Below are positions 34,532-52,916 of a stretch of 64,000 bases of DNA, piece by piece. The stretch lies in the NCBI GenBank assembly GCA_013388635.1, contig JACAEX010000014.1:1-64000 (forward strand), given 5' to 3'. The notes under the pieces are model-generated. The model ran no database searches, was not told the DNA's origin, and saw nothing but the letters and a program-made list of their open reading frames with translations. Each line of letters starts with the position of its first letter. Position 1 is the first letter of the stretch. The translations under genes and the position numbers were made by a program. Source of the DNA: Syntrophaceae bacterium. Lineage in GTDB: Bacteria > Desulfobacterota > BSN033 > UBA1163.

Positions 34532-34634
34532 ATCCGTGACATATAACTGAAATCACCCGTTTCCACAAAGGGCTTAATGCAGGAATCAATAAAGGATACC
34601 CTTGTACTGGAGCTCGAAGGGAGGGAAGGCTGAG

Positions 34635-36512
34635 ATGTATAGCGGCGGATATACAGGAAAGATTCTCCGGGTTAATCTTACGGATCAAACCGCAAAGAAA
34701 GAAAAGCTGTCATCAAAGATTGCAAAGGATTTCATCGGAGGAGCCGGTTTTGGAGTGAAGTTTCTCTTCGACGAGGTGAAGGCAGGGATAGACCCGCTCA
34801 GTCCGGAGAATAAACTCATCTTTGCTCCGGGGCCCTTTACTGGAACGCCTGTTCCCTGTACCAGCCGTCTGACCGTGACAGCAAAATCTCCTCTGACCAA
34901 TTTGGTGGGAATGGGTTTATCCGGCGGCTTCTTCCCCGCAGAGCTGAAGTTTGCCGGCTACGACATCCTCATCATTGAGGGCAGGGCCGAAAAGCCCACG
35001 TTTATCACGATCAAAGATGGGGAGGTACATTTTCGAGACGCCAGCAAGATCTGGGGAACCCAAACCTTTGATTGCCAGCAGATCATCAAAGATACGCTCA
35101 GCGATCAGAACTTCCGGATCTCCTGCATCGGTCCTGCAGGGGAGCGTTTGAGCAGAATTGCGTGTATTATGAATGAGAGAAGGGCGGTCGGCCGTAAAGG
35201 GCTCGGGGCTGTGATGGGATCCAAAAACCTGAAGGCCATTGCCGTCAGGGGAAGCGGCTCCTTAAATATTTCATCCCAGGAGAAATTTAAAACAGCAAGG
35301 TCTCAGATGCTAAAAGCGATGAAGCAGAGCCCGGTCCTCTATCCCGAATTTTCCATGACGGGGACTCCGACCAATGTCGACAATACCTGCGCACTGGGGA
35401 TCTTCCCGGCCAAGAACTGGTCAGCCACAGGGTTGTTCACACCTGCGGATCAGATTGGGATAGAGGCCCTTCAGACCCGGCGGATCGGGAAGGAACCCTG
35501 CTACGGCTGTCCGGTGGGCTGCAGTCAGTTGAGGTTGGCTCGGACAGGTCCCTATGCCGGCATTTTGACCGAAGGACCGGAATTCGAGACGCTCTACTCC
35601 CTGGGCGGACAGACCGGTGTGGACGATATGGACAGCATTATTGCCGCGGATCGTCTATGTGACGAGCTGGGATTGGACAGCATCTCAGCAGGGGTGACGG
35701 TCGGCTTCGCCATGGAATTGTTTGAGAAGGGGATCCTGACGCTCGCGGATACAGGAGGATTAAAACTCAACTTCGGCAATCACGAAGCGATGAACAGATT
35801 GATCCGGCTGATCGCCTTCCGCGAAGGGATCGGAAGCGTCCTGTCCGACGGTGTCAAGATTGCCTCAGAAAAGATAGGGAAAGGGGCTGAGAGGTTTGCC
35901 ATGCATATCAAAGGGCTTGAGCTGCCCGGTTATGACGTGCGGGGTGCCAAGGCCCACGGATTGAGTTATGCCACCTCCTATACAGGAGCGGATCATAATC
36001 GCGGGTATGCCTTCCAGGAGATATTCGGGATCCCGGTCCCCTACCCCGTAGATCGTCTGAGCATAGAAGGGAAAGGAAAGCTCACCAAATGGAACCAGGA
36101 CGTGAGGACGGCAACCGCTGACTGTCCGACCCTCTGTGTCTTCATCTTTGATATGGCCCTCGCAGGCACTTCGCTCAAGAACACGGCTTCTCTGATGGAG
36201 GCGGTGACGGGAATCGCTTTCACGCCTGAGGAGGTCGCCCGGGTCGGGGAGCGGGTCAATAATCTGGCCAGGGCCTTTAACGTAAGGGAAGGGGTGACGA
36301 GGGCCGATGACAGATTCCCTGAAAGACTGATGACCGAGCCTTTAAAGGGCGGCGCGGCCAAAGGACAGCTGATCAGCGAGGAAGATCTCAAGGTGATGCT
36401 CGATGAATATTATACGGTGAGGGGCTGGGATCTGGATACCGGCATCCCGAGCAGAGAAAAACTTGTTGAATTGGGTCTTGAGTATGTCGCCGATCAATTG
36501 GGTGTGAAGTAA
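34635..36512 (+). CDS. Aldehyde:ferredoxin oxidoreductase (tungsten type)
   Basis: Oxidises aldehydes to carboxylic acids with ferredoxin, or the reverse, using a tungstopterin and one [4Fe-4S] cluster. The 625-residue protein has the family N-terminus GGYTGKILRVNLT, pterin-binding ERRAVGRKGLGAVMGSKNLK, the cluster motif CYGCPVGCSQ and the later DCPTLCVF cysteine, and the second pterin motif RGAKAHGLSYATS. ATG 34635 with MYSGGYTG was chosen over an earlier one because it matches the family start. A MoaD-like gene follows eight bases after, an arrangement typical of these enzymes. The substrate is unknown; the adjacent decarboxylase operon suggests aromatic compounds as one option. Confidence 0.93.
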   Translation: MYSGGYTGKILRVNLTDQTAKKEKLSSKIAKDFIGGAGFGVKFLFDEVKAGIDPLSPENKLIFAPGPFTGTPVPCTSRLTVTAKSPLTNLVGMGLSGGFFPAELKFAGYDILIIEGRAEKPTFITIKDGEVHFRDASKIWGTQTFDCQQIIKDTLSDQNFRISCIGPAGERLSRIACIMNERRAVGRKGLGAVMGSKNLKAIAVRGSGSLNISSQEKFKTARSQMLKAMKQSPVLYPEFSMTGTPTNVDNTCALGIFPAKNWSATGLFTPADQIGIEALQTRRIGKEPCYGCPVGCSQLRLARTGPYAGILTEGPEFETLYSLGGQTGVDDMDSIIAADRLCDELGLDSISAGVTVGFAMELFEKGILTLADTGGLKLNFGNHEAMNRLIRLIAFREGIGSVLSDGVKIASEKIGKGAERFAMHIKGLELPGYDVRGAKAHGLSYATSYTGADHNRGYAFQEIFGIPVPYPVDRLSIEGKGKLTKWNQDVRTATADCPTLCVFIFDMALAGTSLKNTASLMEAVTGIAFTPEEVARVGERVNNLARAFNVREGVTRADDRFPERLMTEPLKGGAAKGQLISEEDLKVMLDEYYTVRGWDLDTGIPSREKLVELGLEYVADQLGVK

Positions 36513-41850: not shown

Positions 41851-42276
41851 ATGATCTTTTCAGAAACGATCTCCATAAGAACAAAGGGCTTCAGCGATAT
41901 CCTCGATATAACTCCCCATGTGGTTGAGGTCTTAAAAGATTCGAAGATAGAAAATGGGCTTGTCACGATCTTCTGCCCGGGCTCCACTGGTTCGATCACG
42001 ACGATCGAATACGAATCAGGAGTGCTCAAAGACCTCCAGAAGGCGATCGAAAAGCTCGTCCCGTCGGATGTCCCCTATGAACATGACAAACGCTGGGGCG
42101 ATGGCAATGGGTTCTCCCATGTCAGGGCAGCCCTGATGAAACCAGGCCTGACCATCCCTCTGATTCAAGGACGGCTAAGTCTGGGCACATGGCAACAGAT
42201 CGTCTTCATCGATTTTGACAATCGGAGAAGGGAGAGAAATATACTCATCCATGTGATGGGCGATCAAGGAGATTGA
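41851..42276 (+). CDS. YjbQ family protein
   Basis: A 141-residue protein of the YjbQ/UPF0047 family, with FCPGSTGSITTIEYE, DVPYEHDKRWGDGNGFSH, GTWQQIVFIDFD and RERNILIHVMG. Some members have weak thiamine-phosphate synthase activity; the true role is unsettled. A conserved His and acidic residues line the active site. The 3' end overlaps the convergent tctA gene by 13 bases. Confidence 0.92.
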   Translation: MIFSETISIRTKGFSDILDITPHVVEVLKDSKIENGLVTIFCPGSTGSITTIEYESGVLKDLQKAIEKLVPSDVPYEHDKRWGDGNGFSHVRAALMKPGLTIPLIQGRLSLGTWQQIVFIDFDNRRRERNILIHVMGDQGD

Positions 42277-43802
42277 TTCGATTCGGGATGAGATGGGGCA
42301 TGAACAAGACCCCTCCGCAACCTCTTCCATCCCCATCGAATCAGGGGGGAAAGGTAAGCAAGGATGGCAGCGATGACAAAAAATGCGGAGATCGGCCGGG
42401 TGAAGAAGATGGAAAGACTTCCTCCGGAAATGATGAGGGTCTGGCGAAGTGAATTTTCTGACAAATTCCCAAGAACCAAGGCGAGAATCAGCGGAACGAT
42501 CGGATAGTTGAGCTTCCTCATCAAGTAGCCCAATACCGCAAAGCCGAGCATCATCCACACGTCGAAAAGGCTGTTATTGACGCTGTAAGCTCCTACAGAA
42601 GCAAAGATGACAATAAATCCCATGATGATCGTATAGGGAAGACGAAGCAGGGCCACAAAGGCCGGGATCAAGAAGATATTGATCAGCAATAATAGAAAAT
42701 TGCCAATGTACATACTTGAAATCAGGCCCCATACCAGATCAGGCTTGGTCTGAAAGAGTAAGGGACCCGGACGAATTCCCCACATCATAAAACCTGCCAG
42801 CATCACAGCCGTGGTGGGCGATCCCGGAATCCCAAGCGCCAGAAGGGGAGCAAAGCCGCTGATCGAGGCAGCATTGTTGGCCGATTCGGGTGCCGCCACC
42901 CCTTCAATCGCCCCTTGTCCAAAACGTTCAGGATGTCTGGAAGCCCGCTTCTCAGCCAGGTAAGCCAGAAACGAAGCGGTCGTTATCCCTCCAGCAGGAA
43001 TAATCCCTACGAGGAATCCAATGATTCCACCCCGGATAATAGCCCAGCGCGAGGCGATCCAATCCTGCCATGTCAGAAAGAAATCGCGGAGGCGGAATTT
43101 AGACTTCAGCAATTCCCCTTCCTCAGGCTCCTCAATGCTGCAGAAGACTTCGGCAATTCCAAACATACCACAGATGATGACGATGAAATCAAAACCCCCG
43201 AGGAGTTGAGGAACGCCGAAGGCAAACCGGGGCATGCCACTGACCACATCGAGCCCGATGGTTGCGATCAGAAGGCCCAACATGGTCGAGATAACCGTTT
43301 TGACAGGCTGCTCGCCTCCAAAGACCGTGAGGAGGCCAAACGCCATGAGTGTCAGGCTAAAGTATTCAGCCGGCCCGAACCGTAAAGCAAGCTTTGCCAG
43401 TGCCGGCGCAAAGGCCATCAGGATGACGACTGAAATAGTCCCAGCGACAAAGGAACCGATCGCAGCAACCGATAGCGCAGCACCGGCTCGACCCTTAAGG
43501 GCCATCTGATATCCATCGAGACATGTCATCACCGTGGAAGATTCACCCGGAACATTGATCAGCACCGAGGTGATCGTGCCTCCGTAGGCAACCCCGTAGT
43601 AGATTCCCGCAAACATAATCAGCGCTGAGGTGGGATTTGCCTTAAAGGTAAGGGGAAGCAGGAGGGCGATGGCTGTTGGTGCACCAATCCCTGGCAACAC
43701 CCCAATGATCTGTCCGAACAGAACTCCAACAAGGCAATAGATGATGTTATTGAAAGTGAGTGCAATGGAAAATCCGGTATATAAATTATTGAGAAGGTCC
43801 AT
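42264..43802 (-). CDS. tctA: Tripartite tricarboxylate transporter, large permease TctA
   Basis: A 512-residue inner-membrane protein with about twelve helices. It bears the TctA signatures GVLPGIGAPTAIALLLPLTF, GGTITSVLINVPGESSTVMT, and the repeat unit GIIPAGGITTASFLAY with NNAASISGFAPLLALGIPGS. It forms the transport channel driven by ion gradients. It closes the tctCBA operon. Substrates in this class include citrate, other tricarboxylates and aromatic acids such as terephthalate. Confidence 0.95.
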   Translation of the reverse strand: MDLLNNLYTGFSIALTFNNIIYCLVGVLFGQIIGVLPGIGAPTAIALLLPLTFKANPTSALIMFAGIYYGVAYGGTITSVLINVPGESSTVMTCLDGYQMALKGRAGAALSVAAIGSFVAGTISVVILMAFAPALAKLALRFGPAEYFSLTLMAFGLLTVFGGEQPVKTVISTMLGLLIATIGLDVVSGMPRFAFGVPQLLGGFDFIVIICGMFGIAEVFCSIEEPEEGELLKSKFRLRDFFLTWQDWIASRWAIIRGGIIGFLVGIIPAGGITTASFLAYLAEKRASRHPERFGQGAIEGVAAPESANNAASISGFAPLLALGIPGSPTTAVMLAGFMMWGIRPGPLLFQTKPDLVWGLISSMYIGNFLLLLINIFLIPAFVALLRLPYTIIMGFIVIFASVGAYSVNNSLFDVWMMLGFAVLGYLMRKLNYPIVPLILALVLGNLSENSLRQTLIISGGSLSIFFTRPISAFFVIAAILAYLSPLIRWGWKRLRRGLVHAPSHPESNQSP

Positions 43803-43814
43803 GGTTCCCCTCTC

Positions 43815-44261
43815 TCACCACCCGATCAGTCCTTGTGGCAGGGGGATGGTCAGCCAGGAAATAAAGATCAGATGAATACAGATGGCCGTCACCACAGAGG
43901 TAAGGCCGCATGAGGCCCAGTGATGTCTCCCCATGATCCGCATTGTGATACCAACAAAGAGGCCGAGGCCAATCGAAAAACCGAGGAGAGGTAAAAGGAG
44001 AAAGGTGATGAAGATCATGGCCAACACACGAAGGCCCAGCTTTGTTCGGGCCTTGAAGAATACCCCTATCTTTTCGTGTTTCCTAAGGACATTGACGAGC
44101 ACAAACATGGCGCAACCGACAATCACCACTCCCACCCACAGGGGTAAAAACCCTGGGCCTGGACCATACTCGGAATAATAAGGAAGTTGCGAGGAGAAGA
44201 AGACCACTGCCAGTCCCAATAACAGGACGACCACTCCTCCGATGAGGTCAGCCATGCGCAT
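43815..44261 (-). CDS. tctB: Tripartite tricarboxylate transporter, small permease TctB
   Basis: A 148-residue protein with four hydrophobic helices, starting MRMADLIGGVVVLLLG and containing GPGPGFLPLWVG, a TctB hallmark. AAGGAGGA before the ATG at 44261 fixes the start and excludes a 24-residue extension. It stops 12 bases before tctA. Confidence 0.9.
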   Translation of the reverse strand: MRMADLIGGVVVLLLGLAVVFFSSQLPYYSEYGPGPGFLPLWVGVVIVGCAMFVLVNVLRKHEKIGVFFKARTKLGLRVLAMIFITFLLLPLLGFSIGLGLFVGITMRIMGRHHWASCGLTSVVTAICIHLIFISWLTIPLPQGLIGW

Positions 44262-44342
44262 CCCTGTTCCTCCTTGGGAGAGGTTCATCCGCGCCGGAGA
44301 AGTTCCAGACTGCGGGCGCGGATGATCCGTCACTGGAACTTT

Positions 44343-45329
44343 TTACTTCAGGAGTCCCAGATCTTTCAGAATCTCTTTCGACTCCGCCTCATTCTGAGCC
44401 ACGATCTTGGCGAACTCCTTGCTTCCCATCCAGCCCGGGCTGAGCATATACTTCTTCAGATATTTCTCCTTCCACGAGGACGATTCTGCCATGCGCCTGA
44501 ACATGGTCTCGTAAAAAGCTGCGGCTTCGGCAGGGATGTCAGCTGGGGCTGCAATCCCCCGGTAGAAGAAATAGGTCACATGATGCCCCAGCTCTTTAAA
44601 CGCTGGGACGTCCGGAAATTCCGACATCCGGGAGGTCCTGGCAACGGCCAGAGGGCGCACCATTTTGGCCTCCCACTGGGGCACGAACTCAGGCGGGTTG
44701 GCCCAGATCATATGAACGTGTCCCCCTAAGAGCGCGGTGATACACTCTCCCCCGCTCTTAAAAGGTACGTATCGAAGCCGAATCCCTGCAGACCGTTCGA
44801 AGAGAGACTGGCAGATCTGGTCATCCTGGCCACTGCCCGTTCCTCCAACGGTCAGCTCTCCGGGACGTCGCTTTGCCTCAGCAATGATGTCCGTTATGTT
44901 TTTAAAAGGTGAATCGGTCTTCACCACGATCAACTGCTCGTCCAGGGCAAGATTGCAAATCAATGTGAGCTCGCGGAACGTGGGCGCTCCCTTCCCCGCC
45001 ACCAATGCCGCCTGGGCCTGGCCAGGGATGAAGGTCAAGAGGACGTGGGGGTTGCCACGTTGCTGAACGACCGATGTCGTTCCAATCAGCCCGCTCCCAC
45101 CAGGCCGGTTGACAACGACCAAGGGCTGGGGACAGAGCTTCTCGCCCTCGATGATGCTGGCAATGGACCGAGCTAAGACATCGCTTCCACCTCCTGGGGC
45201 ATATGGGGCCACAAACTCAATCGGCTTGGTGGGCTTCCATTCCGCAGCCGTGCTCCAAATGGGAAGGGCAAATAGTAAGATCGACATGACCACTCCAACC
45301 TCAAACCACTTCATCCCATTTCTTCTCAT
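44343..45329 (-). CDS. tctC: Tripartite tricarboxylate transporter receptor TctC
   Basis: A 328-residue periplasmic solute-binding protein (Bug/TctC fold) with a signal peptide cleaved near IWSTAA. The mature part begins KPIEFVAPYAPGGGSDVLAR, the family's ligand loop, and includes GSGLIGTTSVVQQRGNP and VGGTGSGQDDQICQSL. AAAGGAGGG precedes the ATG. Bug proteins bind diverse carboxylates, so the ligand remains open. Confidence 0.94.
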   Translation of the reverse strand: MRRNGMKWFEVGVVMSILLFALPIWSTAAEWKPTKPIEFVAPYAPGGGSDVLARSIASIIEGEKLCPQPLVVVNRPGGSGLIGTTSVVQQRGNPHVLLTFIPGQAQAALVAGKGAPTFRELTLICNLALDEQLIVVKTDSPFKNITDIIAEAKRRPGELTVGGTGSGQDDQICQSLFERSAGIRLRYVPFKSGGECITALLGGHVHMIWANPPEFVPQWEAKMVRPLAVARTSRMSEFPDVPAFKELGHHVTYFFYRGIAAPADIPAEAAAFYETMFRRMAESSSWKEKYLKKYMLSPGWMGSKEFAKIVAQNEAESKEILKDLGLLK

Positions 45330-45412: not shown

Positions 45413-47101
45413 TTACCTCCTCCCAAGGCTTTCCATGACCATCCTCGCCTTCTCTGTAGATTCCATCTTCTGTGTCACCACATGAAGCCTTGCCCCAAAC
45501 CTCTCCTCACAGAATGTGGCCAGGCCATCCATCGTCTTCCGACTTCCGGTCACAGGAAGAAACGGCCAGAAATAGGTTGGAATTCCCATGGCCACGGTCC
45601 AGGCTGCCCTGACCACTGCCTTGGCCCGGTTGGCCTCCGGAAAACAAGCAACCACCGGAAGTTCTCTGATCGCTTTCTTCCCTGTATTGGCCAGAGAGAT
45701 GAGAAAATCGGAAACCGTGCCGTTTTCGCAACTTCCAAGATCGACGACGGCTGGAAAGTTCTTTCCAAGGGAGGAGAGAAGGCTTAACAATCCCTTTCCA
45801 CAACTGGCCTCCCGCTGTTTTGGGTTGAGCAGACCGTATTTGGCTAAGCTGACACTGGCACATCCCTCTGAGAGGCAGAAAACGTCGTTCCTCAGCAGAG
45901 TCCTGGCGATTGAGATAATCTCTTGGTCCTGCGTGAATTTGACGTTATTACAGCCAGCCAGAAGAACGATCCCCTTGATCTTCCCCTGACCGAGGGCCTC
46001 CACGACCTTTTTTAAGGTAAGATCCTTTATCGAAAAGCCCATCACTGCAGACTCCTTAATCCCCGGGATATCCATGCTCCCTTTTTCGCGACGGGTATGA
46101 TATTCCTCCTGAGCCCGTTCCACAATTTTCCGGGCCAGGTCTGAAACTTTCCCTCTATTCAGGATCTCCGTCGAAACCACTCCTACTTTATAGAGGCTGG
46201 CCAGCTCCATTAAGGATGGATTGACACACTGATCTCCGGCCACGACCAGGCTGACCGCTCCGGTCATCAATGGAACTTCTTGAGAACCATAATTGGTCAC
46301 AGCCGGAAAGGTATAAGGAGGTAGAAACGGGTCTGTGCAGACGCCCAAGATATTGACCTTCTTCCCTTTTGCCGCCTCTGCGATCCTCCGTTTCAAAAGG
46401 GGTGAGAAATGGCCGTAGAGGATGATATTGGCCGTATCCTTTTGGAGAGTGCCGAAATTGACCTCGACCTCTGAGGCCCCGGGCTCACCGAAGACCGCGG
46501 TCTTCAATCTTCCTTGAAGGATCTGCGCAGCGCAACCGGCCAGGGCAGCCTTAAAGGCCCAGAGAAGGGTATCCTCAACCGTCCCGGTTCCGCCATCCAG
46601 CTTCTGAGAGACCTTGAAGAGGGCCCTGCCCATGCCATCTGGATAGATATCCATCTTCTTCCAGGTCTCAAACAAATTTTGGGGAAACCTCTTCATGGCA
46701 TCTGTGGCGCCATCTTCCAGGAAGCTTCGAATCTCCTTCAAAATCCGCTTGGTCTCCTCCCTCCTTTTCGGAGAAACCTCTCCAGCCCCAACCCCTCTAA
46801 CAAAATCGGAGAGCTGATCCAAATATCCCATCGCACCCTGAAGGACCAGCCTCAAAAAGGAATGAACCCCCAGGACATCCTTATCCTTTCCGCAAACCCC
46901 CACCTTGTTCTGATCCCGAAAGGGATGACTGATGCAGGGTCCCTGAAGACAGTCCCGGCAGTTCAGCCCTGTCTCACAAAATCCGCACTGGGGAAGTGAG
47001 TCTTCATAACGATCCCATACCAGGGAAACACCCTTTTCTTCGGCCTCCCTTAGAAAATGCTCGACCGCGCTATCGGCCGTCTTTCTCTGTACAAACTCCA
47101 T
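45413..47101 (-). CDS. CooS-like Ni-carbon-monoxide dehydrogenase, divergent
   Basis: A 562-residue homologue of the catalytic subunit of anaerobic CO dehydrogenase, shorter than the usual 620-640. B-cluster cysteines C48, C51, C56 and C70 are present (GLNCRDCLQGPC, KVGVCG). The D-cluster region differs: C39 and C42 form C-x2-C (QCGFC) while the usual second Cys next to C48 is Asn47. Likely C-cluster ligands are His231 (YGHFSP), Cys255, Cys292 (DQCVNPS), Cys384 (AGCNNVK), Cys414 (SEGCAS) and Cys458 (LGSCENG). The histidine-rich segment near residue 93 that relays protons in known enzymes reads QGAMGYLDQL, without His. It ends an operon with CooF-like and FAD partners. Real CO oxidation is uncertain. 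Confidence 0.85.
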   Translation of the reverse strand: MEFVQRKTADSAVEHFLREAEEKGVSLVWDRYEDSLPQCGFCETGLNCRDCLQGPCISHPFRDQNKVGVCGKDKDVLGVHSFLRLVLQGAMGYLDQLSDFVRGVGAGEVSPKRREETKRILKEIRSFLEDGATDAMKRFPQNLFETWKKMDIYPDGMGRALFKVSQKLDGGTGTVEDTLLWAFKAALAGCAAQILQGRLKTAVFGEPGASEVEVNFGTLQKDTANIILYGHFSPLLKRRIAEAAKGKKVNILGVCTDPFLPPYTFPAVTNYGSQEVPLMTGAVSLVVAGDQCVNPSLMELASLYKVGVVSTEILNRGKVSDLARKIVERAQEEYHTRREKGSMDIPGIKESAVMGFSIKDLTLKKVVEALGQGKIKGIVLLAGCNNVKFTQDQEIISIARTLLRNDVFCLSEGCASVSLAKYGLLNPKQREASCGKGLLSLLSSLGKNFPAVVDLGSCENGTVSDFLISLANTGKKAIRELPVVACFPEANRAKAVVRAAWTVAMGIPTYFWPFLPVTGSRKTMDGLATFCEERFGARLHVVTQKMESTEKARMVMESLGRR

Positions 47102-47177: not shown

Positions 47178-47651
47178 TCAGAAGTCCCGATTTGGAGCAA
47201 ATCCGTACCAGGCAGACCCTTCTTCACGATCCTCCACGACCAGTGCCCGGGTCGGGCAGACCTCCACACAGATGGGATATTCCATGTGACGACAACGGTC
47301 GCATTTCACGGCCACATGCATTTCAGAGGATGGGGCGATGACGCCAAAGGGACAGACCATCACACACATCCAGCAGGCGATGCAGCTGGGCTCATGGACA
47401 TAGACCAGACCTGTCTGCGGATCCCTGCGCATCGATCCGTTCGGACAGGCGTCGACACAGGGCGCGATCTCGCAATGGCGGCAGTGCAAAGGATAAGAAT
47501 TTCCGTCCACATGGACACGGGGGACGGGTTGGGGCGTCTCCAAAATGGCGCTGTTCAGTTCCTTTGAAACTGATCCAATCTCCACTCCGCACCAGAAATC
47601 GCATGTATGACACTGAGTGCACTTTTCCGGATCGACTTTGATCACCTTCAT
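47178..47651 (-). CDS. CooF-like polyferredoxin
   Basis: A 157-residue electron carrier of the CooF/HycB type with four cysteine clusters. The first reads CTQCHTCDFWC; then come HCRHCEIAPCVDACP, CIACWMCVMVCPFG and a final CDRC, paired with CVEVCP. It would move electrons between the CooS-like protein and the FAD oxidoreductase encoded on either side. AGGAGGAAGAG precedes the ATG and only nine bases separate it from the upstream gene. Confidence 0.92.
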   Translation of the reverse strand: MKVIKVDPEKCTQCHTCDFWCGVEIGSVSKELNSAILETPQPVPRVHVDGNSYPLHCRHCEIAPCVDACPNGSMRRDPQTGLVYVHEPSCIACWMCVMVCPFGVIAPSSEMHVAVKCDRCRHMEYPICVEVCPTRALVVEDREEGSAWYGFAPNRDF

Positions 47652-47660
47652 CTCTTCCTC

Positions 47661-48959
47661 CTAAGCTTTTGATGCGGCGAACCGCTGGGTAAGTTCTCTG
47701 TATTCGACCTCGGTGAATTTTTCCTGGTTCTGCTTCACCAGGGGCAAGAGCTCTGCAAAATTGAGCCTCTTGCTCAAAAGGAAGGGAACAACCCCTGAGA
47801 CGTCAAGCTTCTTCCTCATCAGCATGGTCAAAACACCGGCCTTTTGAACCTGACCGACGAGAATGGCCCCGACCAGACGGCCCCCTTTTAGAACGATCTT
47901 CCGGTACATCTCCTTCCCCGAAGCACGAAACTCCTGGTACCCAGGCCCTTCGGATCGCGTGATCCCCATGGAGATCACGGGAAGGCCGAAAACGTCGAGT
48001 GAGTTCATTCGGAAGGAGCCCTCATACTTCGTTTCACGACCTGCCATGTTCAAACCGGCTACACGGCCCTGCTCAAAGGCCACAGGCCAGAGGGCATTCA
48101 CATTCGTCCTCTCCCAGCAGAGATCATAGGTCTCGGCAACGTCCCCGGCGGCATAGATGTCCGGAAGATTTGTTCTCATCCTTTCATCCGCGAGGATCCC
48201 CTCCGCGGTTTTGATCGATGTGGACGAGACGATTTCGAGATTGGGTTCGACGCCCTTGCCCACCACCACCATCTGACAATCGATCTTCTCTCCATTGTCG
48301 AGGACGATGCTCTCCACAAACTCTCCCCCTAAGATCTTCACCGCGTTTCGGCCTGTGATGACATCGATCCCTCTTTCCTGCATCCGTTCCCGGACGAGGG
48401 TCGAGGCTTCCAGATCCAACATCTGAGAGAGGATCCGATCCGAGGCGATGATCAATTTGACCTTCAATCCCCGAAGCGAAAGCGCATAACCGATCCGGAT
48501 CCCGATCAAACCACCGCCTAAGATGCATACGGGTGTGGGTTTGACGAGATGCCTGACCATGGCTTGGGCATGCTCTAAATTCCTCACCACAAAGACGCCC
48601 TTCTTCTCTTTTCCGGGAATGTCCATCAAGTTCGGCCAGGCGCCTGTAGCGATCAACAACCTATCATAGGGATGGTCTCTTCCGTCCTCCGTCCGGATCG
48701 ACTTCGTCTCAGGAGAGATCTTCTCCACCTTCTGGCCTAAGTGGGCCGTCACCCTGTTCTCCTTGAAAAAATCGAGGGGTCTGAAATGGAGTTGTTCCTT
48801 GGAGAGAATCTCGGCAATATAGTAGGAGAGCAAAACCCGAGAATAGACCGGAGTATGCTCCCAGGTGAAGAGTTGAATCTCAGAGGTGGGGTCCACGAAT
48901 CGGATCGCCTCTGCGGCGCTTATTCCTGCGGCGCTTCCTCCAATGATGACGTATCGCAT
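47661..48959 (-). CDS. FAD-dependent NAD(P)H oxidoreductase (CODH-associated type)
   Basis: A 432-residue two-dinucleotide-binding-domain flavoprotein: FAD motif YVIIGGSAAGISAAEAIR at the N-terminus, LLIATGAWPN, NAD(P) motif CILGGGLIGIRIGYAL and the second FAD motif IYAAGDVAE. It resembles NADH-dependent rubredoxin or nitrite-reductase-like reductases. Together with CooF and CooS it matches the cooS-cooF-FNOR layout known from several anaerobes, where electrons pass between CO dehydrogenase and NAD(P). AAGAAGGAG marks the start. Confidence 0.92.
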   Translation of the reverse strand: MRYVIIGGSAAGISAAEAIRFVDPTSEIQLFTWEHTPVYSRVLLSYYIAEILSKEQLHFRPLDFFKENRVTAHLGQKVEKISPETKSIRTEDGRDHPYDRLLIATGAWPNLMDIPGKEKKGVFVVRNLEHAQAMVRHLVKPTPVCILGGGLIGIRIGYALSLRGLKVKLIIASDRILSQMLDLEASTLVRERMQERGIDVITGRNAVKILGGEFVESIVLDNGEKIDCQMVVVGKGVEPNLEIVSSTSIKTAEGILADERMRTNLPDIYAAGDVAETYDLCWERTNVNALWPVAFEQGRVAGLNMAGRETKYEGSFRMNSLDVFGLPVISMGITRSEGPGYQEFRASGKEMYRKIVLKGGRLVGAILVGQVQKAGVLTMLMRKKLDVSGVVPFLLSKRLNFAELLPLVKQNQEKFTEVEYRELTQRFAASKA

Positions 48960-49054: not shown

Positions 49055-49699
49055 TCAATATCGGTTGACCACGTAATAGGGCAGCATCTCCCGGAGCAGT
49101 TTTGCGGCCCGTGTCAGGTTGAAATTGCCACAGGTGCAAGCCTTGGCCATCTCCAGACAGGCCTCCTCGACCGTTCTGCGTCCCTTCTTAATATCCCGGA
49201 GCATCTTTCCAACCAGATCGTTTGCAATCATGGCATGGCCGCACATGGTCGTGATCTTTAACACATCGTATTCTGGCAACCTCTCGGTCTTCCCCCATGT
49301 GCCCATGGAATACTCGACCGTATGGATACGGCCGAGCCCTGCCTCATACATCATCTCCTGGACGATATCGGTGACGCCCGAGACCGTGATCGAAATCCCG
49401 GGTCTCTTCTCCTTCAGCTCTTTGAGCAGGGCGACCACCTTTTCGCGGCTGTCGTAGGTCACCTGAACGATCGTCCCATCGGTCACCCGGGCCAGGATGT
49501 CATCGATGGTCGTATTGTAAATGTTCCCTGTCTTCATATCGCCTTCGTTAATCGGTCCGTGCGTATAGGCGATCCGCAGATACTCTCGCGTCTTGGGCGC
49601 AGATCCCTTCTTATTCACGCCGGTGGCAGGGCAGCCGATCACCACAAAATCGTCCTTCAGACTCTCTCGATCGCCTCTCCGATGCAGACTGTGCGTCAT
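49055..49699 (-). CDS. Uncharacterised 214-aa Cys/His protein, copy B1
   Basis: No family recognised. It has a paralogue of identical length at 52272-52916. Shared features are an N-terminal LHRxG, GxNxxGSAPKxREYL (about residues 27-40), NxGxxxxGNI, a central GISIxxSG, the segment VEYSMGTWG...RLPE and two cysteine motifs near the C-terminus: TMCGHAM and CTCGNFNLTRA. These two Cys/His groups could bind a metal or cluster. There is no signal or membrane segment. It lies 11 bases after the ferredoxin-fused gene A1 and upstream of the FAD/CooF/CooS genes in a likely single operon. AAAGGAGGAGG precedes the ATG. Confidence 0.75.
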   Translation of the reverse strand: MTHSLHRRGDRESLKDDFVVIGCPATGVNKKGSAPKTREYLRIAYTHGPINEGDMKTGNIYNTTIDDILARVTDGTIVQVTYDSREKVVALLKELKEKRPGISITVSGVTDIVQEMMYEAGLGRIHTVEYSMGTWGKTERLPEYDVLKITTMCGHAMIANDLVGKMLRDIKKGRRTVEEACLEMAKACTCGNFNLTRAAKLLREMLPYYVVNRY

Positions 49700-49710
49700 G
49701 ACCTCCTCCT

Positions 49711-50466
49711 TTATCCCTGGTTGTCATAGAACTTGAACTGAGGTTCTCCAAGCCCTACGTTGTTTTTGCTGTTGATCGAATACCAATAACCCAGCTTCTT
49801 GAGAATCGGGATGATCGGAACCTCTCCCTCTGGAGGTACCTTTGAGATGATCTCCACTGAAAAGACTGTATCGACCTTCTCCGCCGCCTTCTTGATAGCC
49901 TCTAAGACCTTCGGAAGACTTTCCAGCTTACACTTCCCTTCGATGATGGCAGAGACCGCCCTTTCGTTGAGCACATCGTCCCTGAGTTTCCCCATCTTCC
50001 TGTCCGACATGAACTGGGTCACAGGGTTCTCCTCCGCGAACTCGTATCCTAAGGGGGCCAACATCTTTGCCACGATCTCCACATCCCGGAAATAGGCCCC
50101 TACCCCTGGCCTTCCCAACTCAATGCCGACGCCGACCTCTCCCGGACGAAATCGTCCGGTGACGTCATTGGTCTTCATCTCCTCGGTCCCACGGCCGGGG
50201 ACCTGAGACCCCTTATATTCAATGAGAGGGTTGCTCAACACGGCCCTGACTTCTCGTGGCCAAGGCTCTGCAGGCTGATAAAGGGCATTGACCGGACAGA
50301 CCTTGGCCCGATAGCACATGCCACAGTCGGTGCACTTATCCTGGTCAATCTCGATATAGACCCTTCCCGGGATCTTCTCGTGCCGGCGAAGGATCTGGAT
50401 CCTCCCCATTGGGCAGTAGGGAAAACACCTCTTGCAACCGATGCACCTGTCGTCACGAACCCTCAT
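49711..50466 (-). CDS. Ferredoxin-domain fusion protein, copy A1
   Basis: A 251-residue protein. The first 65 residues are a two-cluster ferredoxin: C8-C11-C14-C18 (CIGCKRCFPYCP) and CTDCGMCYRAKVCP. The remaining 185 residues form a domain I do not recognise, with GRGTEEMKTNDVTGRFRPGE, ELGRPGVGAYFRDVE, ENPVTQFM and VLNERAVSAIIEGK. The same domain occurs in the 269-aa protein at 51459-52268, so both pairs A1-B1 and A2-B2 derive from a duplication. It is probably a cytoplasmic redox partner for a substrate-binding domain. It is 45 bases downstream of the GntR regulator with GAGAGGAGG before its ATG. Confidence 0.78.
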   Translation of the reverse strand: MRVRDDRCIGCKRCFPYCPMGRIQILRRHEKIPGRVYIEIDQDKCTDCGMCYRAKVCPVNALYQPAEPWPREVRAVLSNPLIEYKGSQVPGRGTEEMKTNDVTGRFRPGEVGVGIELGRPGVGAYFRDVEIVAKMLAPLGYEFAEENPVTQFMSDRKMGKLRDDVLNERAVSAIIEGKCKLESLPKVLEAIKKAAEKVDTVFSVEIISKVPPEGEVPIIPILKKLGYWYSINSKNNVGLGEPQFKFYDNQG

Positions 50467-50511: not shown

Positions 50512-51198
50512 TCAATCTTTAAAAAGGGCCTGAATCGCATCTTGCTTGGCCTCTTCAATATGTTCTCGCATCACCCGCTCACAGAGCTCGGGGTCTCTTA
50601 ACTTCAGGGCCAGAACGATCTTCCGATGGCCATCGATCGTCCTTCTCACTCCATCGGGATATTTCAATGTATTCCTCCGGTACCTCAGGGCATACTTTCT
50701 CACGTTCACCATCAACCGATGAAGCCGGTGTTTATCCGTGACCATCTGATGGAGCGTGTCGTGAAATTTTGTATTCCACCTGTACACCTCGTCGGTCCTT
50801 CCGTTCCTCAAGGCATCCTCTGCCTTTTCAATAAAGACGTTCAGTTCTTCGAGGTGCCCATCGGAAATCGTTTGAGAGATCACCCTCAGCGCATAGCCCT
50901 CCAGGACGGCACGGATCTCAAACAGCTCCTCTACCTCCTCCTTTGAATCGCGAGAAACAATGAATCCCCTCGTTTCAAGAGGTTTGACCAGACCCTCCAG
51001 CTCTAACTTATGGAGCGCCTCTCGGACCGGCGTCCGGCTGACCCCTGTCTCCCTGGCCAAATGCTCCTCTGCCAGCCTCGTTCCTGGATCGAAACGGCCA
51101 GAAAGGATGGCCGACTTCAGATATTCGTACACCTTTTCTCGAACAGGCAGACCTTTCTTTCGGCTGATCTTTCTAAGGGATCGCAAAATTGTATCCAA
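50512..51198 (-). CDS. GntR-family regulator, FCD type
   Basis: A 228-residue regulator with an N-terminal winged helix (VYEYLKSAILSGRFDPGTRL; VSRTPVREALHKLELEGLV) and a C-terminal helical FCD domain (FEIRAVLEGYALRVI; KFHDTLHQMVTDKHRL; REHIEEA) whose Asp/His residues bind a metal and an organic-acid ligand in relatives. The start is TTG at 51198, with a good promoter 20-50 bases upstream. It heads the minus-strand operon and faces a divergent promoter for A2-B2, so it likely controls both and itself. Confidence 0.9.
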   Translation of the reverse strand: MDTILRSLRKISRKKGLPVREKVYEYLKSAILSGRFDPGTRLAEEHLARETGVSRTPVREALHKLELEGLVKPLETRGFIVSRDSKEEVEELFEIRAVLEGYALRVISQTISDGHLEELNVFIEKAEDALRNGRTDEVYRWNTKFHDTLHQMVTDKHRLHRLMVNVRKYALRYRRNTLKYPDGVRRTIDGHRKIVLALKLRDPELCERVMREHIEEAKQDAIQALFKD

Positions 51199-51458: not shown

Positions 51459-52268
51459 ATGGAAATTGATAAAAAGAAATGCGTGGGTTGTGGAAACTGC
51501 CATGCGGTATGCACCATGGCTGCGATCTACCTCGACGAGGACGGAAAGTCTGTCGTCAACCAGGATGAGTGCGTGGAGTGCGGGAACTGTTATAGGGTGC
51601 TCCGAAACGAAGGCTATCGCCCCTGGTTCGTCCGGTTGATTCGAAAGATTCTCTCCTCCCTTCGATTGGGTTATCTGGCCGAAGTGGATGTCTGTCCAAC
51701 CGGCGCGCTCACGCCGCGCCAGCTCGATTGGCCGAGGAGCCTTCGTGCGGCCTTCAGTGATCCCTCTACCGTCCATCCGGGCACAGGCGTATCCGGCAGG
51801 GGAACAGAAGAGATCAAGAGCAACGATGTCACCGGAAGGGTCCGGAGAGGAGAGGCTGGCTTGGTCGTTGAGATCGGCAGGCCTGGCATTGGTGCCCATT
51901 TCAGGGATGTGGAGAAGGTGGCCATGGCCATGGCCAGGCTGGGGGTCGCCTTCGAACCGATGAATCCTGTCACCCAGCTGATGGAGGATGAGAAGACCGG
52001 AAAGATCAGGGAGGAGGTTCTTAATGAAAAAGTCCTCTCCGCGATCATCGAGATGAAGGCGGAGTTGAAACGAATCCCCGAATTTTTAAGGGAACTGGAA
52101 AAGGTTCAGGGCGAGGTGGACACCGTGATCAGTGTGGGGGTTGCCTCCAGATGCCTTCCCGACGGGACCATCCCCCACGAGGGGTGGGTGAAGAAGACGG
52201 GCTATACCCCCTCACCCAATGGCAAGACGAATCTCGGCCTGGGCAGGCCACTGTTTCGGGAGGATTGA
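51459..52268 (+). CDS. Ferredoxin-domain fusion protein, copy A2
   Basis: A 269-residue paralogue of the 251-aa protein at 49711-50466. The first cluster is CVGCGNCHAVC, followed by T in place of the usual P. The second begins CVECGNC, but its fourth cysteine (VDVCPTGAL) comes only after an insert of about 30 residues, rich in Arg and Leu (PWFVRLIRKILSSLRLGYL), that may be a membrane-touching amphipathic helix. The C-terminal domain repeats GRGTEEIKSNDVTGR, EIGRPGIGAHFRDVE, MNPVTQLM and VLNEKVLSAIIE. Transcribed from a consensus promoter and followed three bases later by B2. Confidence 0.78.
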   Translation: MEIDKKKCVGCGNCHAVCTMAAIYLDEDGKSVVNQDECVECGNCYRVLRNEGYRPWFVRLIRKILSSLRLGYLAEVDVCPTGALTPRQLDWPRSLRAAFSDPSTVHPGTGVSGRGTEEIKSNDVTGRVRRGEAGLVVEIGRPGIGAHFRDVEKVAMAMARLGVAFEPMNPVTQLMEDEKTGKIREEVLNEKVLSAIIEMKAELKRIPEFLRELEKVQGEVDTVISVGVASRCLPDGTIPHEGWVKKTGYTPSPNGKTNLGLGRPLFRED

Positions 52269-52271
52269 GAG

Positions 52272-52916
52272 ATGACCAATACTCTCCACCGACAGGGGAC
52301 AATCGAGAATCTAAGAAACGACTATGTGATCTTTGCCTACACCGCCAAGGGGATCAACCGTGAGGGATCAGCACCGAAGCTTAGGGAATTCCTGAAAATC
52401 TGTCTGAAGCATCATCCGGTCAATATCGGCAATAGCAGGCAGGGCAATATCCACCAGGACGATATCGATATCGAGCAACTGATTCTCAATCAGGGAGACG
52501 GTGAGGGAGCTATGGCTGTCTTTACGGACCTCGATACCCTTCGGAAGGTGGTTGAAGAACTGATCCAGGCAGACCTGGGAATCTCGATCAACATCAGTGG
52601 GCTTTTGAAAGAAGTCAACGAGTGCTGCCAGAAGGCGGGGATTCAGAGACACAGTGTGGAACAGTCCCTCGGTTTCTGGGGGGCAAGGGATCGACTCCCC
52701 GAGAGAGAGATCTTGATGTTTCACACGATGTGCGGCCATGGAATGGTCTCCTTCAACCTGATTCGGAAGATGATCGAATATGTGAAGCTGCGGCGGTTGA
52801 CACCGGGGGAGGCCTCCAAGATCATGGCCAAATGTTGCGAATGCGGGGCCTTCAATCCTCTCCGTGCTGAGATGCTTTTGGAGAAGGTAAGAAAAGGGGA
52901 GAGGGAGACGAGGTAA
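52272..52916 (+). CDS. Uncharacterised 214-aa Cys/His protein, copy B2
   Basis: Same length as B1 and clearly paralogous: LHRQG, GINREGSAPKLREFL, NIGNSRQGNI, GISINISG, VEQSLGFWG, RLPE, TMCGHGM and CECGAFNPLRA. It has extra cysteines (NECCQKAG and AKCCECG) absent from B1. Start ATG follows GGGAGGATTGAGAG and is three bases after the A2 stop, so A2 and B2 are translationally coupled. The repeated A-B pairing implies that the two proteins act together. The function is unknown. Confidence 0.75.
   Translation: MTNTLHRQGTIENLRNDYVIFAYTAKGINREGSAPKLREFLKICLKHHPVNIGNSRQGNIHQDDIDIEQLILNQGDGEGAMAVFTDLDTLRKVVEELIQADLGISINISGLLKEVNECCQKAGIQRHSVEQSLGFWGARDRLPEREILMFHTMCGHGMVSFNLIRKMIEYVKLRRLTPGEASKIMAKCCECGAFNPLRAEMLLEKVRKGERETR

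Follow-up and report, generated by a model that had tools for sequence, protein, structure and literature searches.

A clade G CooS lineage that keeps its wiring clusters while sister genes have lost the catalytic site suggests an enzyme made into an electron-transfer part

What a protein built like a carbon monoxide dehydrogenase (CODH) is for when part of its catalytic site has changed, and when most of its relatives have lost that site altogether, is the question raised by a CooS-like gene of a Syntrophaceae bacterium. The gene lies at 45413-47101 on the minus strand of a stretch of 64,000 nucleotides (assembly GCA_013388635.1, contig JACAEX010000014.1), hereafter the window, beside genes for a CooF-like protein, an FAD/NAD(P) oxidoreductase (FNOR) and two proteins called p251 and p214. 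Building on the motif set, the operon, the pattern of loss and the purifying selection set out below, we suggest, at a rough probability of 0.45, that a branch of the CODHs has been turned into a non-catalytic electron relay. The C-cluster would have been removed within a p251-p214-FNOR-CooF-CooS operon while the D- and B-clusters were selected for, further reduction would have led to B-cluster-only proteins and to forms of 350-410 amino acids wired to aldehyde ferredoxin oxidoreductase (AOR), and the CooS of the window would be a snapshot of the transition, with its C-site partly built.

The open reading frame starts with ATG and its product matches the Prismane/CODH superfamily (PF03063) at 1.1e-66, with 226 bits against a gathering cut-off of 27. 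The best PDB match is the CODH of Desulfovibrio vulgaris (6elq, E 6.5e-75), and CODH-II of Carboxydothermus hydrogenoformans (ChCODH-II) is matched at about 1e-70, so that the homology to CooS proposed in the initial annotation is beyond chance; the NCBIfam model TIGR01702 (CO_DH_cata) gives 280.5 bits, under its curated cut-off of 478. The protein had been estimated to be 60-80 residues short, and it does have about 70 fewer than the solved enzymes (562 versus 633-636 in the PDB chains 6elq and 1su6), all 22 full-length CODHs compared from the same phylum having 630 amino acids or more. Its cluster residues, taken from HMMER alignment and a residue table of relatives, are as follows.

45413..47101, minus strand: CooS-like protein of 562 amino acids, Prismane/CODH fold, with the motif set of group G-1 (clade G)
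46892..46987, minus strand: D-cluster pair C39-x2-C42 and B-cluster C48, C51, C56 and C70, with the type III D-cluster motif CxxCx5C
46409..46411, minus strand: His231, His ligand of the C-cluster
46334..46339, minus strand: Cys255-Thr256, with Thr at the first C-cluster Cys (Cys295 of ChCODH-II) and Cys255 aligned with Cys294
46226..46228, minus strand: Cys292, second C-cluster Cys
45950..45952, minus strand: Cys384, third C-cluster Cys
45860..45862, minus strand: Cys414, fourth C-cluster Cys
45728..45730, minus strand: Cys458, fifth C-cluster Cys
45620..45622, minus strand: Lys494, acid-base Lys, which we take to be Lys563 of ChCODH-II

The C-cluster ligands had been thought kept, which holds for five of the six (His231, C292, C384, C414, C458); the first Cys is Thr256, and a second change had been overlooked, Asp219 of ChCODH-II being Gly189 here in an ungapped HMMER alignment. 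Together with Tyr93 in place of His93, the protein thus departs in three respects from an active Ni-CODH, for which we take the position and role of Asp219, and in part the role of His93, as given. The lack of a His ladder near residue 93 is real: where 22/22 CODHs of the phylum have His in the first two ladder columns, the window protein has Tyr93 and Gln96, as do its three closest relatives. Nor does a ladder appear elsewhere in the fold, as His occurs only at 15, 59, 80, 231, 335 and 540, leaving residues 81-230 free of it. A missing acid-base His is not unusual, as Inoue 2019 (PMC6344411), in the parts bearing on this position, lists Tyr there in clades C, D (most) and G. At the other end of the electron path, the translation has Cys at 39, 42, 48, 51, 56 and 70 and Asn at 47, as first described, and C39, C42 and C48 satisfy the type III motif; the proposed [2Fe-2S] D-cluster of D. 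vulgaris type fits the C-X2-C spacing and [2Fe-2S] cluster given for that enzyme in the relevant text of PMC6168284.

On its motifs and gene context, the window CooS belongs to a known, uncharacterised clade of Ni-CODHs, clade G, group G-1. As described by Inoue 2019 (PMC6344411, relevant text and Table 2), G-1 combines a type III D-cluster, the C-cluster His, Thr at Cys1, Cys2-Cys5, Tyr for the catalytic His, the acid-base Lys, and FNOR and CooF nearby; all nine features in the table are matched here (H231, T256, C292, C384, C414 and C458; Y93 and K494; FNOR and CooF at 47178-48959). In that description clade G consisted in 2019 of a single protein, OGP75751, from which, compared by its published features, the window CooS does not differ; the clade is now larger and mostly devoid of C-cluster ligands. 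The mini-CooS of Thermosinus carboxydivorans, also short, was placed in clade G by Inoue 2022 (PMC8776680), and is set apart by its description there, which gives it complete cluster motifs. The 2026 genome-context study (PMC13056359), as far as its text on clades goes, left clades G and H out. The CODH of D. vulgaris (group E-2) shares the C-x2-C motif and the B-cluster with the window protein and differs in having, in the text available, the full C-cluster ligand set and the His, on a chain of 633 residues.

The relatives of the window CooS carry the argument further. When 59 related genomes were searched for homologues, nine close ones stood out (L007-L015, 54-70% identical); beyond these, and apart from short N-terminal stretches, no match exceeded 35% identity. 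Scanning each species through a single genome yielded 18 loci (L036-L053), several of which repeat genes among L007-L015. The window protein and these 18 loci make up the rows of the residue table; L053 ends before the C-cluster region, and with L062 (genome G001) added the relatives without a C-cluster number 15. Three relatives (L036, L037 and L038, 66-70% identical to the window CooS) keep the C-cluster residues as it does, His231, C292, C384, C414, C458 and K494 being retained in all four rows. In the other 15, which are 45-57% identical, C292, C384, C414 and C458 are replaced or deleted in every case, and His231, present in 22/22 CODHs, survives in two and Lys494 in one. The C-cluster-less L041 nevertheless scores 166.6 bits with the Prismane/CODH model PF03063. 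The D- and B-cluster cysteines are present in 19/19 rows of the table, and Cys255 in all 18 that can be assessed. Full-length clade G proteins are rare: at E<=1e-100 they occur in 7/395 genomes from the phylum, and the C-cluster is retained in three of these cases and absent from the other four. This split appears to be new to print: our literature searches of open-licence PMC, with supplementary tables outside their scope, found no report of CODH homologues lacking the C-cluster.

A set of 79 alignment positions is conserved in 20 or more of the 22 CODHs and also retained by each of the four rows with a C-cluster. While 42 of these are kept in all 15 C-cluster-less rows, nine are kept in four or fewer, namely H231, C292, C384, C414, C458 and K494 together with L402, N460 and A495; a post hoc hypergeometric calculation for the six C-site residues among those nine gave 3e-7, a value that is only a guide since related rows are not independent. 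Judged from these alignments, the loss is aimed at the C-site residues. The replacements are not random either, position 292 being Phe, Trp or Tyr in 12/15 rows, 414 Glu, Asp or Gln in 15/15 and 495 Glu in 15/15, as if the old pocket had been filled or rebuilt. The invariant Glu495 and the Glu, Asp or Gln at 414 (L039-L052, L062) could form a new metal or salt-bridge site there.

Since the named relatives come from metagenome-assembled genomes or similar assemblies, the C-cluster-less genes might be decaying pseudogenes or assembly errors that say nothing about the window CooS. Seven pairs of them (L041/L042, L045/L046, L041/L048, L042/L047, L039/L040, L043/L044 and L050/L051) were compared by the Nei-Gojobori method (NG86), with nonsynonymous divergence (dN) of 0.03-0.23, synonymous divergence (dS) of 0.18-1.5, several values near saturation, and dN/dS of about 0.1-0.2, which marks functional genes under purifying selection; by dN, the first 75 residues evolved more slowly than the rest of the protein in 7/7 pairs. 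Open frames are full-length in 14/15 (L051 runs off its contig), and the same operon recurs in 14/14 loci in independent assemblies. Decay or misassembly is therefore largely refuted, and we consider it most improbable.

The operon around the window gene is a run of nine genes in the same direction, separated by gaps of 9 to 95 bp, in which CooS lies between CooF and a tripartite tricarboxylate transporter (Tct):

50512..51198, minus strand: GntR/FCD regulator at the head of the run (PF00392, PF07729), 45 bp from p251
49711..50466, minus strand: p251, two 4Fe-4S clusters and an unknown domain, paired with p214 (alignment of 25)
49055..49699, minus strand: p214, invariant CGH...CxCG, family unknown (alignment of 28; no Pfam match over cut-off)
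47661..48959, minus strand: FNOR, FAD/NAD(P) oxidoreductase (PF07992, 7.4e-57)
47178..47651, minus strand: CooF-like protein with several 4Fe-4S motifs (Pfam Fer4_11 and others)
44343..45329, minus strand: TctC, solute receptor of the transporter (PF03401, 8.9e-35)
43815..44333, minus strand: TctB (PF07331, 1.9e-17)
42264..43802, minus strand: TctA (PF01970, 4.2e-160)

CooF is directly upstream of CooS in 18/18 loci. The order p251-p214-FNOR-CooF-CooS, seen in the window, is found in all 14 related loci with enough upstream DNA (L039, L040, L042-L047, L049-L053 and L062), 13 of which lack the C-cluster, L053 being cut off. Among the C-cluster-bearing loci, the full order is present in the window, L036 has part of p214 and FNOR, L037 has part of FNOR, and L038 has a GntR-like fragment, not FNOR, ahead of CooF at the start of its contig. 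With most relatives in the same operon lacking any C-cluster ligand, the function common to these operons cannot depend on CO chemistry.

For the window CooS itself, we see about an even chance that this clade G (G-1) homologue serves an NAD(P)-linked module as its electron-relay subunit, and that the purpose of the module no longer lies in the C-site. Reduced ferredoxin, or the oxidation of a carbon compound on the p251/p214 side, would be linked to NAD(P) by an exchange of electrons via FNOR, CooF and a CooS-like dimer with its D- and B-clusters. Electrons would pass between NAD(P)H and CooF through FNOR, and CooF would dock at the D-cluster of the dimer, behind which the B-cluster lies in CODHs. 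Without a C-cluster, the B-cluster would be the end point or would hand electrons on to another partner, a role for which p251 and p214 suggest themselves by their constant presence in the operon. In the window CooS the C-site is without Cys295, without the catalytic His and without the partner residue Asp219; the cluster there is probably altered, with a CO activity that would be low or nil. A C295E variant of ChCODH-II is described with much reduced CO oxidation (Inoue 2019, PMC6344411, relevant text), and CODH-V of C. hydrogenoformans, which has Glu there, is reported in the text on it in PMC10502027 to be without CO activity, so little is to be expected here. The electron route, the absence of CO activity and the substrate are what we infer from this arrangement.

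Several observations weigh against the relay. An idle site would hardly be expected to retain His231, four Cys and Lys494, as it does in the window CooS and its three close relatives, and a reaction may persist there; the electron route itself is an extrapolation. Of the six C-cluster-less genomes searched, five also hold a Prismane-family protein of CdhA or CooS length, the sixth being G001 (97% complete), in which the C-cluster-less protein is the sole member of the family. The tree does not settle one loss against several: without the active-site columns the four C-cluster-bearing rows fall among the C-cluster-less ones, which form one side in 0% of 200 bootstrap trees, with those columns they form one side (93/95), and a single C-cluster-less clade is not rejected by the approximately unbiased (AU) test (p 0.175). 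Finally, the window's own genome contains what we take to be, from the sequences, a CODH/ACS gene set with a catalytic subunit of 768 amino acids and two CooC-like ATPases, so a Ni cluster could be made. CooC is absent near all these clade G loci, which does not discriminate, because the ordinary CooS-CooF-FNOR loci L074 and L075 also lack it.

These genes, and the five ligands and Lys kept in 4/4 rows, would suit a genuine CO dehydrogenase whose C-cluster is modified, with Thr256 or Cys255 serving for Cys295, and which is linked to NAD(P) by way of CooF and FNOR, the more so as FNOR/CooF operons of other clades are read as CO-oxidising units in the corresponding text of Inoue 2019 (PMC6344411). 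The equivalents of His93 and Asp219 have gone too, however, and sister proteins in the same operon are incapable of CO oxidation, which makes this explanation unlikely, though it deserves to be kept in view. A modified C-cluster may nevertheless be present, and a low-activity CODH or another reaction, as initially proposed, is possible. One such reaction would be that of a hybrid-cluster-like enzyme whose C-site holds an Fe-S-O cluster and which acts on nitric oxide, hydroxylamine or another small molecule in the manner of CODH-V or the hybrid cluster protein (HCP). Cys295 is replaced as in CODH-V (group D-1), likewise a CODH fold without this Cys, and models of hydroxylamine reductase match weakly (about 22 bits). 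CODH-V, as described, has Glu at 295, a hybrid cluster and the other Cys, whereas the C-cluster-less sister proteins have none of Cys2-5 and no ligands for such a cluster. The Glu at 295 and the Glu two before the Lys that mark D-1 and HCP in the text of Inoue 2019 (PMC6344411) are Thr256 and Arg492 in the window CooS, for which an HCP-like ligand set was rejected, and we hold this function to be improbable.

Proteins eroded further than these were also found. In five CooS-like proteins of about 500-530 amino acids (L064-L068; L117, L118 and L121 also, by context), the four B-cluster cysteines are kept in 5/5 aligned rows, and the C-cluster cysteines and the D-cluster pair are lost, apart from one D cysteine in L068. 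They adjoin CooF, p251/p214 and, in 4/5, FNOR, and were placed beside clade G with a support of 87, a placement that is weak because long branches meet there. A still shorter type (L069-L072, 348-413 amino acids, 4/247 genomes) keeps D- and B-type cysteines beside CooF and FNOR, with AOR near three of the four, the fourth (L071) being on a contig of 4.9 kb. One of these is in the window's own genome:

Contig C62, 5205-6248, minus strand: L072, CooS-like protein of 348 amino acids with D- and B-type cysteines only, between the CooF and FNOR genes and next to AOR

In the window, an AOR gene (34602-36512, plus strand) lies about 9 kb from the CooS gene on the opposite strand.

Frequent neighbours of the clade G loci are Tct or TRAP-like transporters (TRAP assigned by eye), GntR regulators, DUF169, TauE and a class-V aminotransferase (Pfam Aminotran_5) that is presumably serine-glyoxylate aminotransferase; together the neighbouring genes look like carboxylic-acid catabolism. 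In L043, L045 and L052 the aminotransferase, TauE and Tct or TRAP-like transporters nearby hint at a glyoxylate- or sulfonate-type substrate. The best NCBIfam model for the window FNOR is PadH of NADH-dependent phenylglyoxylate dehydrogenase (272 bits versus a cut-off of 475), and CooF also matches PadI, both below the curated cut-offs; to our knowledge phenylglyoxylate dehydrogenase has no CooS-like subunit. For p214, whose AF2 model has a pLDDT of 92, the fold search stayed without a PDB match at E<=0.001; its top VIA Z, 4.8 to PII-like SbtB, is below the meaningful level, and the search for p251 led nowhere. The p251/p214 family (L064-L068, L081-L105) occurs in 24/247 genomes of the phylum, with up to nine matches per genome, beside thiamine pyrophosphate enzymes, AOR, CoA transferases and transporters (several named by eye). 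The window, in addition to its operon pair (49055-50466), has a second one:

51459..52916, plus strand: divergent p251/p214-type pair of 269 and 214 amino acids (from the alignments of p214 and p251)

CODH is regarded as a catalyst of ancient origin, and sequences with changed or missing C-cluster residues are discarded in surveys. By the selection rules given in their texts, Inoue 2019 (PMC6344411) kept only sequences without deletions in the clusters, Inoue 2022 (PMC8776680) demanded the last three Cys of the C-cluster along with those of the B-cluster, Bohm and Land 2026 (PMC13056359) sorted out sequences in which cluster or acid-base positions fell in gaps and examined long branches for the presence of the key clusters, the 2024 gut survey (PMC11338639) allowed no substitutions or deletions, and the 2026 marine survey (PMC13240472) required all five Cys. 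As the surveys select on these residues, a C-cluster-less sister lineage would mostly have been filtered out by design. If the relay reading is true, the CODH/CooF/FNOR set would serve more generally as a unit for NAD(P)-linked electron transfer, cooS genes should not simply be read as CO metabolism, and the C-cluster-less relatives would be natural C-cluster-free CODHs for the biophysics of the B- and D-clusters.
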